Part shown: positions 10,591-15,575 of the stretch, piece by piece
Layout of the letters: each line of letters opens with the position of its first letter
How positions within the stretch are numbered: the first letter of the stretch is position 1
Assembly (NCBI RefSeq): GCF_000970305.1
Contig: NZ_CP009517.1
Location: 1,426,001-1,490,000 of the forward strand
DNA length: 64,000 bases
Origin: Methanosarcina barkeri 3
Lineage (GTDB): Archaea > Halobacteriota > Methanosarcinia > Methanosarcinales > Methanosarcinaceae
Direction: 5' to 3'
Position numbers and translations under genes: made by a program
Notes under the pieces: model-generated
Databases searched by the model: none
Told to the model about the DNA's origin: nothing
The model's input: only the letters and a program-made list of their open reading frames with translations

Positions 10591-11763
10591 ATGAGAAAAG
10601 AGCACTATGTGTTCCCGTTGGAGGATTTCGCTTCAAGAGACGATTTTAACAGAATCAAAAAGTTCTCCCGGGATAAAGAAACCCCGTTTTTGACTGTTGA
10701 CCTGAAGAAGATAGAGCAGAGCTATGACGATCTGGTAGAGCACATGCCCTTTGCAAAAATTCACTATGCTGTAAAAGCTAATCCTATGGATGAGGTTGTG
10801 CTTGCCCTGAAGAACAAAGGCTCCAATTTTGATGTGGCAACGGTTTATGAACTTGATCAACTTCTCAGGCTTGGGGTAGAGCCTGAAAGGATCAGTTACG
10901 GCAATACTATCAAAAAAGAGAAAGATATAGAATACGCATATGAAAAGGGAGTGAGGCTTTATGTTACTGACTCTGACAGCGATCTGAAAAAGTTAGCTAG
11001 AAAAGCCCCGGGTTCCAGAGTATTTTTCCGTATCCTTACTGAGAGCGACGGGGCTGACTGGCCTCTCTCAAAGAAGTTCGGTTCGCACCCTGATCTGATA
11101 TATAAGCTCATTTTGAAGGCTGAGAAGTTGGGACTTGAGCCTTATGGACTTTCTTTTCATGTTGGTTCTCAGCAGAGAGACATTGGCCAGTGGGACAATG
11201 CCATTTCCAAATGTAAGTACCTTTTTGAAGCAGTGGCTGAAAAAGGCATACAGCTAAAAATGATCAACCTTGGTGGAGGTTTTCCTGCAAAATATCAAGC
11301 TCAGGCTCATGAACTTGAGACCTATGCCGGAGAAATACGCCGCTTTTTACATGAGGACTTTGGAGAAGAACTGCCTGAGATTATTATAGAGCCCGGACGT
11401 TCTTTAGTTGCCAACGCCGGTATAATAGTAAGTGAAGTTGTAATGATCTCCAAAAAAGCCAGATTTAACCAGTACAAATGGGTCTATCTTGATATTGGCA
11501 AATTCGGCGGTCTTATAGAAACTCTTGATGAGTGCATCAAATATCCTATTTTCTGTGATAAAAAAGGTTGCGCTGAAGAAGTAATTCTTGCAGGCCCGAC
11601 CTGCGACAGCATGGATATCCTGTATGAGCATCACAAGTATTCATTCCCTCACACAATGCGCGAGGGAAACCGCGTGTACATTTTCACGACAGGTGCCTAT
11701 ACCCAGAGCTACAGTTCCGTGTGTTTTAACGGTTTTCCTCCTCTCAAGGCTTATCTTCTTTGA
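10591..11763 (+). CDS. PLP-dependent ornithine/lysine decarboxylase (fold type III)
   Basis: 390 residues of the eukaryotic-type ornithine decarboxylase family, which removes CO2 from ornithine or lysine to give putrescine or cadaverine. YAVKAN carries the Schiff-base lysine (about residue 58). FHVGSQ, GGGFP and EPGRS line the phosphate pocket. GPTCDSMDIL carries the catalytic cysteine donated across the dimer and the substrate-binding aspartate. The C-terminus GAYTQSYSSVCFNGF is also typical. The substrate is not decided by what can be seen. RBS GGGAG sits 8 nt before the ATG. This would be a polyamine biosynthesis step in the cytosol. Confidence 0.88.
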   Translation: MRKEHYVFPLEDFASRDDFNRIKKFSRDKETPFLTVDLKKIEQSYDDLVEHMPFAKIHYAVKANPMDEVVLALKNKGSNFDVATVYELDQLLRLGVEPERISYGNTIKKEKDIEYAYEKGVRLYVTDSDSDLKKLARKAPGSRVFFRILTESDGADWPLSKKFGSHPDLIYKLILKAEKLGLEPYGLSFHVGSQQRDIGQWDNAISKCKYLFEAVAEKGIQLKMINLGGGFPAKYQAQAHELETYAGEIRRFLHEDFGEELPEIIIEPGRSLVANAGIIVSEVVMISKKARFNQYKWVYLDIGKFGGLIETLDECIKYPIFCDKKGCAEEVILAGPTCDSMDILYEHHKYSFPHTMREGNRVYIFTTGAYTQSYSSVCFNGFPPLKAYLL

Positions 11764-11889
11764 AAATATACTAAAAAGTTAATTTAAAAGGCTAGAGCAC
11801 TGAAGGGCCTGAATGACCCAAGACTCTATCCTTTTTACAGCCAACATATGCTTCTCTCGAATCCCCTTTTGCTCTTAAGAGAATGGAAT

Positions 11890-12096
11890 GCTTAACCGCA
11901 ACCCTTTTGAAAAAATTGCTTGACCGCAACCCTTTTGAAAAAAGGCTTGACCGAAAACCTTTTTTAAAAAACTGCTTGACCGCAACCCTTTTGAAAAAAT
12001 TGCTTGACCGCAACCCTTTTGAAAAAAGGCTTGACCGAAAACCTTTTTAAAAAACTGCTTGACCGCAACCCTTTTGAAAAAAGGCTTGACCGAAAA
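11890..12096. repeat. 27-29-bp tandem repeat, 'CTTGACCGCAA' family
   Basis: About eight copies of a unit containing GCTTGACCGCAACCCTTTTGAAAAA, alternating with the form GGCTTGACCGAAAACCTTTTTAAAAA. Neighbouring copies pair as AAGCC/GGCTT inverted repeats. It follows the decarboxylase by about 125 bp. Same family as 2970-3054. Confidence 0.9.
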
Positions 12097-12456
12097 TCAC
12101 TGATAAATCTAAAACATTATGATAGCACGATCGCAATCCTTTTAGAAAGGCTTGATTGAAAAGTCCAAGCGGCAACGTGATCAATATCGTAACAGTTGCA
12201 AATCAAAATGGGTAGTTTGTAAAATGTTGCTGTGGTTATCTATGACTGGAAAACAGGAAATAAAAGTGTAAAGCTACTCTTTCCAGACTTAGATATTCTC
12301 TTTGGTTATGCTGTGTTTATTCAAACCGGTTATGAATCTAATAACACTTTATGATTACAAATTGAGTTAGGAATAAAAATAATGGGTTACTCTCTTAAAT
12401 CGCCGGTTTGGATTGTGCATGGGGACAATAAGTTTTAAAAAGAGATTTTATGGCAT

Positions 12457-12505
12457 TTACTATCAACTTTACTATCAACTTTACTATCAACTTTACTATC
12501 AACTT
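12457..12505. repeat. 12-bp tandem repeat TTTACTATCAAC
   Basis: Four perfect head-to-tail copies of a 12-bp unit in non-coding DNA about 110 bp upstream of the first structured-RNA copy. Confidence 0.9.
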
Positions 12506-12618
12506 AATGTATTAAATTTTATCATTTAATTGAATATTTTAATATCATTAAAAGTTTTGCACATAAACAAATAAAAGAGCTATTTAAAAATTCAGAGTAC
12601 AAACTGTTTTTTTGGTCG

Positions 12619-12632
12619 GTTATGATATATAT
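12619..12632 (+). promoter_or_regulatory. TATA box of structured RNA copy 1
   Basis: TTATGATATATAT, 24 nt before the predicted RNA 5' end. The same box in the same context lies before copy 2 (13260-13273), within a duplicated upstream segment that otherwise has diverged, which supports it as a real promoter. Confidence 0.55.
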
Positions 12633-12647
12633 TCCTAACCCACTATA

Positions 12648-12750
12648 AGAGTATAGATTAAGAGTAATAGGGTTTCCTCTTAATCTTTGGGTTGGATCGC
12701 AGGTAGGGACCCGAGAATAGGGACTCGGTAACCCTACCATCTACTTTTAA
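12648..12750 (+). ncRNA. Structured small RNA candidate, copy 1
   Basis: Two hairpins in tandem. Hairpin 1 (12656-12685) pairs GATTAAGAG with CTCTTAATC around a 12-nt loop. Hairpin 2 (12702-12738) pairs GGTAGGG with CCCTACC and inside it CCGAG with CTCGG. A single-stranded GGGTTGGATCGCA joins them and a CTTTT run follows. Two further copies at 13300 and 13397 keep the structure with a compensatory change in hairpin 1 and a G-T swap in hairpin 2, so the folding seems selected. There is no open reading frame of note. Identity with any named Methanosarcina sRNA could not be established here. Confidence 0.7.
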
Positions 12751-13259
12751 ACTAATTTCTAGGGCAACGTGCTATTTTTCATAATGTTTTTATTTTTAAT
12801 AAACTTTATGACCGTTCCTAAATTTAGAATTTTATACACAATGTTGACTACTACTTTATGAAGGACCGTGAAAGTTAATATCTTTTTGCTTTCCTTCAGT
12901 TTGGGCTCAACGACAAATCGCAAATTTCATTAGACACCTGGCATATTGCGCATGAGATCTACCAGGCTCCTTTACAAAAAGGCAAGATTATAGGACGGAG
13001 TATGAATCCTAAAGTCTTTATCCTCGATGGTTCACTGAAAATTGTATGCAGCACCTGCAATGTTGCTTTAACATACTCACATCGTTAGTAAAAAAGTTTT
13101 TTTCAGATTGCTAATAAGATGATAGTTACAATAAGACGATAGTTATGAAGATCCGGTAAAATTAATGTTCACGAAAGATTTAATATCATTGAAAATTTTG
13201 CCTATATCAAAAATCGATGTCCGAAGTAAAATTTAAATTACTAATTGTTTTTTGTGTCG
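12751..13259. other. Spacer between RNA copies 1 and 2 with possible gene remnant
   Basis: The stretch 12885-13088 is open on the plus strand for nearly 70 codons and ends in TAG. Its translation (for example SLDTWHIAHEIYQAP and KVFILDGSLKIVC) looks protein-like, but its only ATG is internal, so it may be a gene remnant. It is not a recognised family. From about 13175 on, the sequence is a diverged duplicate of the segment upstream of RNA copy 1. Confidence 0.35.
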
Positions 13260-13273
13260 ATTATGATATATAT
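13260..13273 (+). promoter_or_regulatory. TATA box of structured RNA copy 2
   Basis: ATTATGATATATATC, placed relative to hairpin 1 as in copy 1 (27 nt to 28 nt). Copy 3 has no TATA box of its own. Confidence 0.55.
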
Positions 13274-13289
13274 CTCCATGTTGTTATAA

Positions 13290-13388
13290 AAAGAGTGTAG
13301 ATTGAGAGTAATAGGGTTTCCTCTCAATCTCTGGGTTGGATCGCAGGTAGGGATTCGAGAATAGGGACTCAAACCCTACCATCTACTT
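13290..13388 (+). ncRNA. Structured small RNA candidate, copy 2
   Basis: Hairpin 1 (13300-13329) is GATTGAGAG/CTCTCAATC. Relative to copies 1 and 3, an A-T pair has become G-C with both sides changed. Hairpin 2 (13346-13380) is GGTAGGG/CCCTACC. Linker GGGTTGGATCGCA is identical to copy 1. It lies in a segmental duplication that includes the promoter. Confidence 0.7.
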
Positions 13389-13391
13389 CTA

Positions 13392-13490
13392 TGTTAGATT
13401 AAGAGTAATAGGGTTTCCTCTTAATCTTGGGTTGGATCGCAGGTAGGGATTCGAGAATAGGGACTCGATCCCTGCCAACTGATTCTATAT
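13392..13490 (+). ncRNA. Structured small RNA candidate, copy 3 (tandem to copy 2)
   Basis: Begins 16 nt after copy 2 ends, without a promoter of its own. Hairpin 1 (13397-13426) equals copy 1. Hairpin 2 (13442-13476) is GGTAGGG/CCCTGCC, which keeps pairing through a G-T wobble. It may be co-transcribed with copy 2 as a four-hairpin RNA. Confidence 0.62.
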
Positions 13491-13869
13491 CAATTAACTG
13501 CTTTTCTAATAAACATTTTCTAGTAAAATACTTTTCCAATAAATTACTTTTAAGTTACTACCATTCAGCAGATACATTTGAAATTAATTTATTGAATATC
13601 ATCTTATTCTTACAATGTACTTAGATTTAATAAAGTTTATGATTGTTTTATAAGATGATGTATATGCCTGAATATCTCTTTTTTAAGGCAAATTGGGGCT
13701 TCTCCATTGAGTTCTTAGAAATGTATGTTCCTCAGATTAACTTTTTCTGCTCAAGGCAACCTGAAAAATATCTAAGAAAAGAATAACGTGGAACATTTAA
13801 CCGTTAAAGAGGATAAAACTATTTGAGAACTATTGGCGATCCACAAGGAGCTTACTTAATAGTTGCTTG
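13491..13869. other. Non-coding gap downstream of RNA copies
   Basis: About 380 bp, AT-rich. No credible gene and no strong hairpin seen. Confidence 0.5.
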
Positions 13870-14030
13870 GAAATTAATTGAAAACTGATTGAAAACTGAT
13901 TGAAAATTAATTGAAAACTGATTGAAAACTGATTGAAAATTAATTGAAAACTAATTGAAAACTAATTGAAAACTAATTGAAAACTAATTGAAAACTAATT
14001 GAAAACTGATTGAAAACTAACTGAAAATTA
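13870..14030. repeat. 11-bp tandem repeat ATTGAAAACTA
   Basis: About fourteen copies of ATTGAAAACTR/ATTGAAAATTA. It ends 95 bp from the 3' end of the leftward oxidoreductase operon. Confidence 0.92.
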
Positions 14031-14123
14031 TTAATAAAATCAGGTAGAGAAAAAATTTTCTCCACCTGTTTTTACGCAACTCGAGTATCCTCGAAACTTC
14101 GTATTTTCTCAAACCTTAAATCC

Positions 14124-15575
14124 TTAGAATTTAACATTTTCTCTTGCCCACTGTGCCCCAGCTTCGAGAACCATCTGGTTAAACTCAATGACTCTGGGTT
14201 TTCCTGTAAAGTTTTCGGCAAGAGCCTCCTTAAACACTTCCTCTTTCAGGCCGGTTGCGTTAATACCCATAAGGACTCCAAGCATGAAAGAGTTAGCAGC
14301 TTTCTCGGAACCGGCTTCCTTGGCTTTTTCAGTTGCAGGAACAGCAACTGCCTTTACATGTGAAGGCGTTTCGACTTCACCGATGGATGAGTCATAGAGG
14401 ATAAAGCCTCCTTCTCGAACTGCCCCTTCAAACTTTTCAAGAGAAGGACGGTTCATAGCTATCAGAATGTCCGGAGTGTAGACCGTAGGAGAGCCTATAG
14501 ACTGGCCTGAAATCACGACAGAGCAGTTAGAGGTACCTCCCCTCTGTTCAGGGCCATAGGACGGGAACCAGGAAGCGTTGAGATTTGCCTTAACTCCGGC
14601 CTGTGCAAGAATTATTCCCATGCTGAGAACACCCTGCCCTCCGAAACCAGCAATCTTGGTCTGGATCGGGGCAAAGTCCTTTCTGGCAGGTTTTTCTTCG
14701 GCTTCTGCCTCAATACCGTAAAGCTGTTCAAGGGCTTTGGTTGTAAAGTCACTGACTCCACGGTGCAGTGGTTCTACTTCTTCTGATTTATCCCTGAAAT
14801 TCTTGACAGGAAATTCCTTTTCCATCTCTTCATTTATGAAACTGATGGCCTTTTCCGCATCCATCTTGAGGTTAGTCGGGCAGGAGGCAAGGACTTCAAC
14901 AAAAGCATATCCTTTCCCGTCACGCTGGATTTCAAGCGCCTTATGTATGGCTTTTCTTGCTTTCCTGATATGGGATATATCCGAAACTGAAACCCTTTCA
15001 ATAAATACCGGAGCCTTAAGGTTTTCCAGCAGCTCGCACATATGTAGAGGATAACCTGCAAAACGGGGGTCCCGACCTTCCGGGCACGTAGTGGTCTTTT
15101 CCCCTACAAGAGTTGTGGGTGCCATCTGTCCACCTGTCATTCCGTAAACGGTATTATTTACGAAAAAGACTGCAAGCTTTTCACCCCTATTTGCGGCCTG
15201 AAGAGTCTCGTTCAGACCAATGGAAGCCAAATCTCCGTCTCCCTGATAAGAGATCACCACAGCATTTTCTTCAGCCCTGGAGACTCCAGTACCAACCGCA
15301 GGCGCACGGCCGTGAGCAACCTGGATGTTGCCTGTATCAAAATAATAGTAAGCGAAGACCGCACATCCCACAGGGCTTATCATAACGGTCCTGTCCTGAA
15401 TACCAAGGTCATCAATTGCTTCGGCAATAAGCTTGTGCAGAACCCCATGTCCGCAGCCTGGGCAGTAATGAGTGGCTGTAGAGGCTACTGATCCTTTGCG
15501 AGGGTAGTCCGCATACAGGGCCTTTGGCTTTCCTATTACTTTTTCTCCGTTAATGATTTCTGCTGCCATTTTCAT
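14124..15575 (-). CDS. 2-oxoacid:ferredoxin oxidoreductase, fused beta-gamma subunit (probable 2-ketoisovalerate type)
   Basis: 483 residues joining two subunits that are usually separate. Residues 1-270 are the thiamine-diphosphate beta chain ([30 protein letters not shown]). Residues 305-483 are the gamma chain ([31 protein letters not shown]). With the alpha and ferredoxin chains just upstream it converts a 2-oxoacid and CoA to acyl-CoA, CO2 and reduced ferredoxin, reversibly, in the cytosol. The start ATG overlaps the alpha stop as ATGA, indicating translational coupling. The 2-ketoisovalerate (Vor) assignment is by family resemblance and the acyl-CoA synthetase nearby, and is less sure than the class. 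Confidence 0.87.

Follow-up and report, generated by a model that had tools for sequence, protein, structure and literature searches.

A multicopy family of small structured RNAs in Methanosarcina with a possible link to methyl-substrate regulation

Introduction

Protein-titrating small RNAs of the CsrB and RsmX/Y/Z type carry repeated GG-containing hairpin loops, occur in several copies and are controlled by regulators. In Listeria, LhrC1–5 are multicopy sibling sRNAs under shared control, with three redundant motifs located in their loops and in a single-stranded stretch (PMC4132741), and the FopS group of Bacteroides consists of 14 paralogous sRNAs that are dispersed in the genome, conserved within a bacterial family and associated with one RNA-binding protein (PMC11697453). 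Among archaea, sRNA162 and sRNA171 of Methanosarcina mazei are structured, tied to an ArsR-type regulator and to the methanol/methylamine switch, and represent one duplication; sRNA162 is 191 nt long, with three stem-loops and a long variable linker, and lies antisense to the 5′UTR of MM2442, on the strand opposite to MM2441 (PMC3510493). In the same species, sRNA154 is about 130 nt long, has two stem-loops and is conserved in Methanosarcina; it is one gene between MM3337 and MM3338, with an NrpR operator, and is expressed only without fixed nitrogen (PMC3177094, PMC5867862). In the open literature that we searched, we found no archaeal multicopy sRNA family of comparable size to the one described here, and a search for its sequence strings returned nothing relevant.

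The family was identified in a 64,000-nt stretch of Methanosarcina barkeri 3, referred to below as the window, whose host genome is a single contig of 4.56 Mb. Its members resemble LhrC1–5 in being multicopy siblings in which a motif recurs three times, in loops and in single-stranded sequence, FopS in being paralogous and dispersed in the genome, and CsrB/RsmX/Y/Z in having repeated GG-containing hairpin loops and several copies. They differ from all of these: LhrC is bacterial and has CU-rich motifs that pair with mRNAs, whereas the present family is archaeal, G-rich and without sequence relation to it; FopS, which is also not homologous, acts by a 5′ seed near start codons and has canonical sigma promoters; and the loop motif is (A)NGGG here and ANGGA in CsrB/RsmX/Y/Z. 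By its published description sRNA154, which is of similar size (~130 nt) and likewise has two stem-loops and is conserved in Methanosarcina, appears different in being one NrpR-operator gene. sRNA162, as published, also appears different in the organisation of its locus: the family member at locus C (see below) has no such antisense neighbour. The sRNA candidates already published for M. mazei (Jaeger et al., 2009) may include some members of the family.

Results and discussion

Three RNA copies in one intergenic region

The initial annotation had placed three paralogous structured RNAs at 12656, 13300 and 13397, each with two hairpins and a constant linker. These positions are correct, and the linkers start at 12689, 13333 and 13429. 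The features of the locus are as follows.

10591–11763, + strand: flanking gene of the PLP-dependent Orn/DAP/Arg decarboxylase type, a syntenic boundary
about 12375–12433, + strand: decayed fourth copy, hairpin 1 and linker only
12519–12645, + strand: conserved promoter region of copy 1 (footprint across 14 orthologues)
12616–12632, + strand: promoter core element of copy 1, TCGGTTATGATATATAT, with a T-run at about 12607–12613
12646–12752, + strand: sRNA copy 1 (covariance-model match of 117 bits)
12655–12686, + strand: copy 1 hairpin 1, loop TAATAGGGTTTC (fold and alignment of homologues)
12689–12701, + strand: copy 1 linker GGGTTGGATCGCA, the best-conserved stretch outside the helices
12702–12738, + strand: copy 1 hairpin 2, loop AGAATAGGGACT (fold and alignment of homologues)
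about 12774–12818, unstranded: AT-rich 3′ element of copy 1, a T-run plus TTTATTTTTAATAAAC..TTATGACCGTT (conserved in the footprint)
13257–13273, + strand: promoter element of copy 2, TCGATTATGATATATAT
13290–13394, + strand: sRNA copy 2 (covariance-model match)
13299–13330, + strand: copy 2 hairpin 1, GATTGAGAG/CTCTCAATC (sequence and fold)
13333–13345, + strand: copy 2 linker GGGTTGGATCGCA
13346–13380, + strand: copy 2 hairpin 2 (sequence and fold)
13387–13490, + strand: sRNA copy 3, the second unit of a tandem with copy 2, lacking a promoter of its own (DNA search, covariance model and TRF)
13396–13427, + strand: copy 3 hairpin 1 (sequence and fold)
13429–13441, + strand: copy 3 linker GGGTTGGATCGCA
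13442–13476, + strand: copy 3 hairpin 2, CCCTGCC with a U–G wobble (sequence and fold)
13607–13647, unstranded: second copy of the AT-rich 3′ element, after the tandem of copies 2 and 3 (repeat search)
14124–15575, − strand: flanking 2-oxoacid:ferredoxin oxidoreductase gene, a syntenic boundary

The 2.3-kb stretch between the flanking genes (11764–14123) contains no credible gene, as had been noted. Both of the base changes first reported also hold: hairpin 1 of copy 2 reads GATTGAGAG/CTCTCAATC, a double change relative to the GATTAAGAG/CTCTTAATC of copies 1 and 3, and in hairpin 2 of copy 3 the change from CCCTACC to CCCTGCC, opposite GGTAGGG, leaves a U–G wobble pair. A 96-nt period detected by TRF links copy 3 to copy 2, with which it is probably co-transcribed. 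The hairpin 1 and linker of the decayed fourth copy are better preserved in two orthologous loci (L044 and L049), and this copy illustrates the birth and death of family members. In the DNA search copy 1 matched a contig without mismatch over 111 nt. Two further intact relatives lie elsewhere in the host genome (C1:561751–561856 and C1:2780399–2780511). The same intergenic region also contains unrelated tandem repeats at 11887–12092 (28 bp), 12456–12505 (12 bp) and 13867–14027 (11 bp).

Structure, covariation and strand

The fold z-scores of copies 1–3 on the + strand are −2.8, −1.5 and −3.6. A single copy is thus only moderately unusual in its folding, and the proof of the structure comes from the homologues. 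In an alignment of 64 distinct homologues, 92% of helix cells are paired, compared with 37–55% when the partners are slid by 1–3 columns, and two-sided compensatory change is seen in 89 cells, where shuffled alignments average 33. Eleven pairs show two-sided compensation; hairpin 2 has such changes at four basal pairs, and one pair of hairpin 1 alternates between G–C (31) and A–U (29). Unpaired substitutions in both stems, the pattern that the initial annotation took as incompatible with its proposal, were looked for in the same 64 sequences: 97.8% of the cells of hairpin 1 and 90.8% of those in the basal stem of hairpin 2 are paired. The proposal of paralogous structured RNAs with compensatory changes is therefore supported by the homologues, and we regard the existence of a structured RNA family as practically certain.

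The RNA is read on the + strand, because GU/UG cells exceed AC/CA mismatches in both hairpins (39 against 8 in hairpin 1, and 43 against 29 in hairpin 2). An outer closing stem was considered in two registers and rejected, as it shows no covariation. The copies are also not small protein genes, because the frame from the linker to loop 2 varies: this distance is 13–16 nt among homologues, and indels of 1–3 nt place the linker and loop 2 in all three frames, so that a small-protein mRNA was rejected.

Distribution and subfamilies

The DNA search found copies in 27 of 31 genomes. A covariance model built from the 64 distinct copies and run on 112 Methanosarcinaceae genomes gave matches in 36, comprising 30 of the 31 Methanosarcina genomes (the sole miss has a completeness of 60%) and six from two sister genera; there were none in the other 24 genera of the order that were sampled. 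The number of matches per carrying genome is about 1–12. As in multicopy siblings of the LhrC/FopS/RsmX type, there are thus several homologous sRNA genes per genome. Against Rfam 15 the window has no match at the gathering threshold, and at a relaxed threshold only chance-level matches fall over the sRNA; the three window copies are members of a small structured RNA family that has no Rfam entry.

The homologues fall into three subfamilies. Subfamily I, the window type, has the linker GGGTTGGATCGCAGG and AATAGGG in both loops; subfamily II has the linker GGGGTTGGATCATCG and loops that are mostly NGGG followed by UU or AA, so that both loops carry (A)NGGG in these two subfamilies. In the window type, two hairpins with nearly the same loop, GAG(U)AAUAGGG, are joined by the invariant single-stranded GGGUUGGAUC. 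Subfamily III is a deeper branch found at one locus. Its linker is GGGGTTGAATCACA, one of its loops is AAGGGGTTTTT and the other is the constant ATCAGAGGTGGCAAA; in its hairpin 1, ACGATT/AATCGT becomes GCGGTT/AACCGC by way of a wobble intermediate. We regard this subfamily as homologous because it has the same architecture, a similar linker and promoter, and covariance-model matches (E about 1e-4 to 1e-7).

The core of the linker is the most constrained unpaired part of the RNA, with a mean majority of 97%. We also considered mimicry of the 3′ end of 16S rRNA, in which a hairpin followed by UGGAUC would correspond to helix 45 plus GGCUGGAUCACCUCC and would capture a ribosome-assembly or initiation factor. 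The linker GGGUUGGAUCGC / GGGGUUGGAUCAUC does resemble the 16S tail of the host itself, GGCUGGAUCACC. However, the two have only 6–8 nt in common, subfamily III has GAAUCAC, the anti-Shine-Dalgarno sequence CCUCC is lacking, and the sequence of hairpin 1 is unlike that of helix 45. We consider such mimicry very improbable.

Promoter and transcription unit

Alignment of 14 orthologues of copy 1 reveals a conserved island within a diverged spacer. Column identity is 85% in the promoter (12609–12638), 82–96% in the RNA and 80–87% in the 3′ element (12774–12818), with a poorly conserved gap between the RNA and the 3′ element. In the host genome the promoter element TCGRTTATGATATATAT, at no more than one mismatch, occurs exclusively before sRNA copies. 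Across the family a TATA motif is found upstream of 98 of 125 copies, and in 96 of these it ends 20–26 nt before the core. The copies thus have in common, as multicopy sibling sRNAs do, a promoter element that is near-private and at near-fixed distance, and a single controlling factor is putative. It had been claimed that two of the window copies have TATA boxes at the same distance: two copies do have promoters, but the distance from TATA box to hairpin is 36 nt in one and 39 nt in the other, similar rather than identical. A promoter class for stable RNAs was considered and rejected, since no tRNA or other known RNA was found near the other sites of the motif.

Archaeal transcripts start about 25 nt after the TATA box, and the transcript of copy 1 is therefore expected to start at about 12646. 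Copy 1 would yield an RNA of ~100–130 nt and the tandem of copies 2 and 3 one of ~200 nt, sizes with which the promoter positions are compatible. The AT-rich 3′ element is private to sRNA loci in five genomes and is a probable terminator. Two other readings of it were rejected: a small ORF, as frames and stops vary among homologues, and a convergent promoter (CGGTCATAA, minus strand), whose box is lost in the sister genus. We infer with considerable confidence that the sRNA is independently transcribed.

Genomic loci and inheritance

Most copies are inherited vertically, chiefly at three loci. Locus A, that of the window, lies in most genomes between the PLP decarboxylase gene and 2-oxoacid:ferredoxin oxidoreductase genes. 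Locus B adjoins LysE-type and ABC-2 transporter genes, often with PAS/GAF/HisKA kinases. Locus C is flanked on one side by a FilR1/Msr-type regulator with an IF-2B-family gene, and on the other by the FmdE, TrmO and CobN genes. A riboswitch or cis-acting leader does not fit the window locus and its orthologues, which lie between convergent genes, with the next downstream gene on the other strand.

The copies are dispersed and multicopy, at times clustered, and some decay, all of which would also be expected of a mobile element or selfish repeat, small and non-autonomous (MITE- or REP-like), whose folding is due to chance. The closest relative lies in another genome for 99 of the 124 copies that have paralogues; the copies are therefore passed on mostly vertically, with birth and death of members rather than recent spread. 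Insertion polymorphism without synteny, as for a MITE, is not what we see: the copies are mostly syntenic. In addition, the compensatory changes, the near-private promoter and the strand bias of the wobble pairs imply selection on the RNA. No sRNA match was found in the plasmids and phages searched, nor in viral contigs scanned by exact pattern. A mobile repeat is accordingly the least probable of the explanations that we weighed, and we give it hardly any credence.

Two further observations concern the neighbourhood of the copies. Many copies outside locus A adjoin large PAS/GAF/HisKA_2 histidine kinase genes, often divergently, one of them with a MEDS domain (L056, L059, L064, L065, L072, L073, L099, L112 and L119). 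In genome G007 a HEARO RNA (RF02033, 137 bits; L106 5108–5312) lies directly beside a locus-C sRNA pair.

Possible relation to methyl-substrate genes

Published work assigns targets to the Msr regulators, namely mtaCB operons to MsrA/B and MsrD/E, and mts operons to MsrF/C (PMC3960522), and places msrC beside mtsF (PMC11619418). Two lines of observation may connect the present family with this circuit. First, at locus C, which is outside the window, all 12 loci checked, from two genera, have the sRNA and a FilR1/Msr-type gene in divergent orientation. Secondly, the closest promoter-like sites other than those of the sRNAs that are conserved across genomes (TCGGTTATGGTATATGT, TCGGTTATGCTATATAT and TCGGTTAAGCTATATAT/C) stand ~180–320 nt upstream of genes for MtaC/MtaB or fused corrinoid methyltransferases and, in one case, of a CobW-type gene; where regulator neighbours were looked at, the sites are beside FilR1-type regulators, so that Msr-adjacent methyltransferase operons (mtaCB and mts-type) are preceded by elements closely related to the promoter. 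A promoter matrix scan gave 6 strong sites within 240 kb around FilR1 genes against 2 within 450 kb of control, a modest enrichment (p about 0.02) with a threshold chosen afterwards.

Because the promoter resembles those of methyl-substrate (methanol, methylsulfide) genes, the family is likely to regulate the use of these substrates by methane-makers. The more specific link to the Msr circuit is a lead rather than proof, and we put it somewhat short of an even chance; the shared element may instead be a strong general TATA/BRE promoter core rather than an Msr site. Five genomes also conserve a further promoter variant, TCGATTACCATATATAT, which precedes the gene of a 338-aa protein that matches nothing in Pfam or NCBIfam (L292 1980–3161 and orthologous sites in L297, L301, L303 and L304).

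Mode of action

In its anatomy the family matches multicopy sRNAs that raise binding capacity, CsrB/RsmX for proteins and LhrC and FopS for mRNAs: both hairpins have the same loop, the single-stranded linker adds a third G-rich site, copy number is high and includes tandem copies, and the promoter is shared. We think it probable that the RNAs are trans-acting regulators and, on balance, favour as the explanation of the whole a family of multicopy sRNAs that act in trans and are tied to the regulation of methyl-substrate use. In this proposal each RNA, ~100–130 nt long (~200 nt for the tandem pair), would be independently transcribed and act in trans. Each molecule would offer three G-rich binding sites, two loops and a linker, because the two loops are alike and the single-stranded linker is invariant, and the sites would be multiplied by copy number. 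Most copies would be driven by one near-private promoter element common to Msr-adjacent methyltransferase operons and so be co-induced within the methyl-substrate (Msr/FilR1) circuit. They would then act post-transcriptionally, their repeated G-rich sites binding a shared partner, which would be either a titrated RNA-binding protein (CsrB/RsmX-like) or a set of mRNAs (LhrC/FopS-like). We divide our expectation evenly between protein titration and mRNA base pairing, and hold each to be possible at well under an even chance.

In the strict form of the first, the (A)NGGG loops and the linker would sequester one putative RNA-binding protein without any pairing to mRNA. The identity of the loop on both hairpins, with the linker as third G-rich site, is consistent with this, as are the amplification and tandem doubling of the copies, which raise dosage. 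Nor do antisense targets stand out. In three genomes, near-perfect antisense matches to the loop of hairpin 1 do not exceed those in reversed controls; the complement of the linker is almost confined to the sRNA genes themselves, without genome-wide excess; and duplex energies to methyltransferase leaders are unremarkable, being no better than to others. The 28-bp tandem repeat upstream, with CAACCC, was considered as an antisense target and rejected, since it appears not to be conserved in other genomes. Titration of a protein explains less well why the 10-nt linker is far more constrained than a GGG motif needs, and why loop 2 of subfamily III (AUCAGAGGUGGCAAA) deviates from the motif.

Imperfect pairing to mRNAs, possibly those of Msr/FilR1-type regulators, would place the family closer to sRNA162 or LhrC, and sRNA162 of M. 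mazei does target an ArsR-type regulator (PMC3510493). The hairpin-2 loop pairs slightly better with the starts of 41 FilR1-type genes than with those of 412 others (p = 0.009), an exploratory and uncorrected value from one of three tests, on paralogous and hence non-independent genes, and the shuffled version is not significant. With the same two sets of genes, loop 1 and the linker gave nothing. Furthermore, G-rich sites would be unable to mask Shine-Dalgarno sequences, which are also G-rich.

In the most far-reaching reading, the family would be an archaeal counterpart of Csr/Rsm or LhrC, a co-regulated set of sRNAs expressed with the Msr methyltransferase regulon and titrating a protein or mRNAs through repeated G-rich loops, and would so bring a global post-transcriptional layer to substrate choice in methylotrophic methanogenesis; we hold this to be rather unlikely. 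Methanosarcina, across which the family occurs, is a model genus of methanogens with well-developed genetics, and in some species there are few copies, genome G010 showing two strong ones in the DNA search. The defined promoter element and conserved regulator neighbour make it possible to test DNA recognition by Msr/FilR1 regulators, and also whether methanogens switch methyl substrates through a global RNA-based layer.

Loop 2 of subfamily III deserves separate mention. At locus C (L078, L106, L114, L116, L215, L219, L224 and L231) this loop, ATCAGAGGTGGCAAA, is nearly constant and holds GAGGTG, which is complementary to the 16S anti-Shine-Dalgarno sequence CACCTC; judged by this complementarity, it might touch ribosomes.
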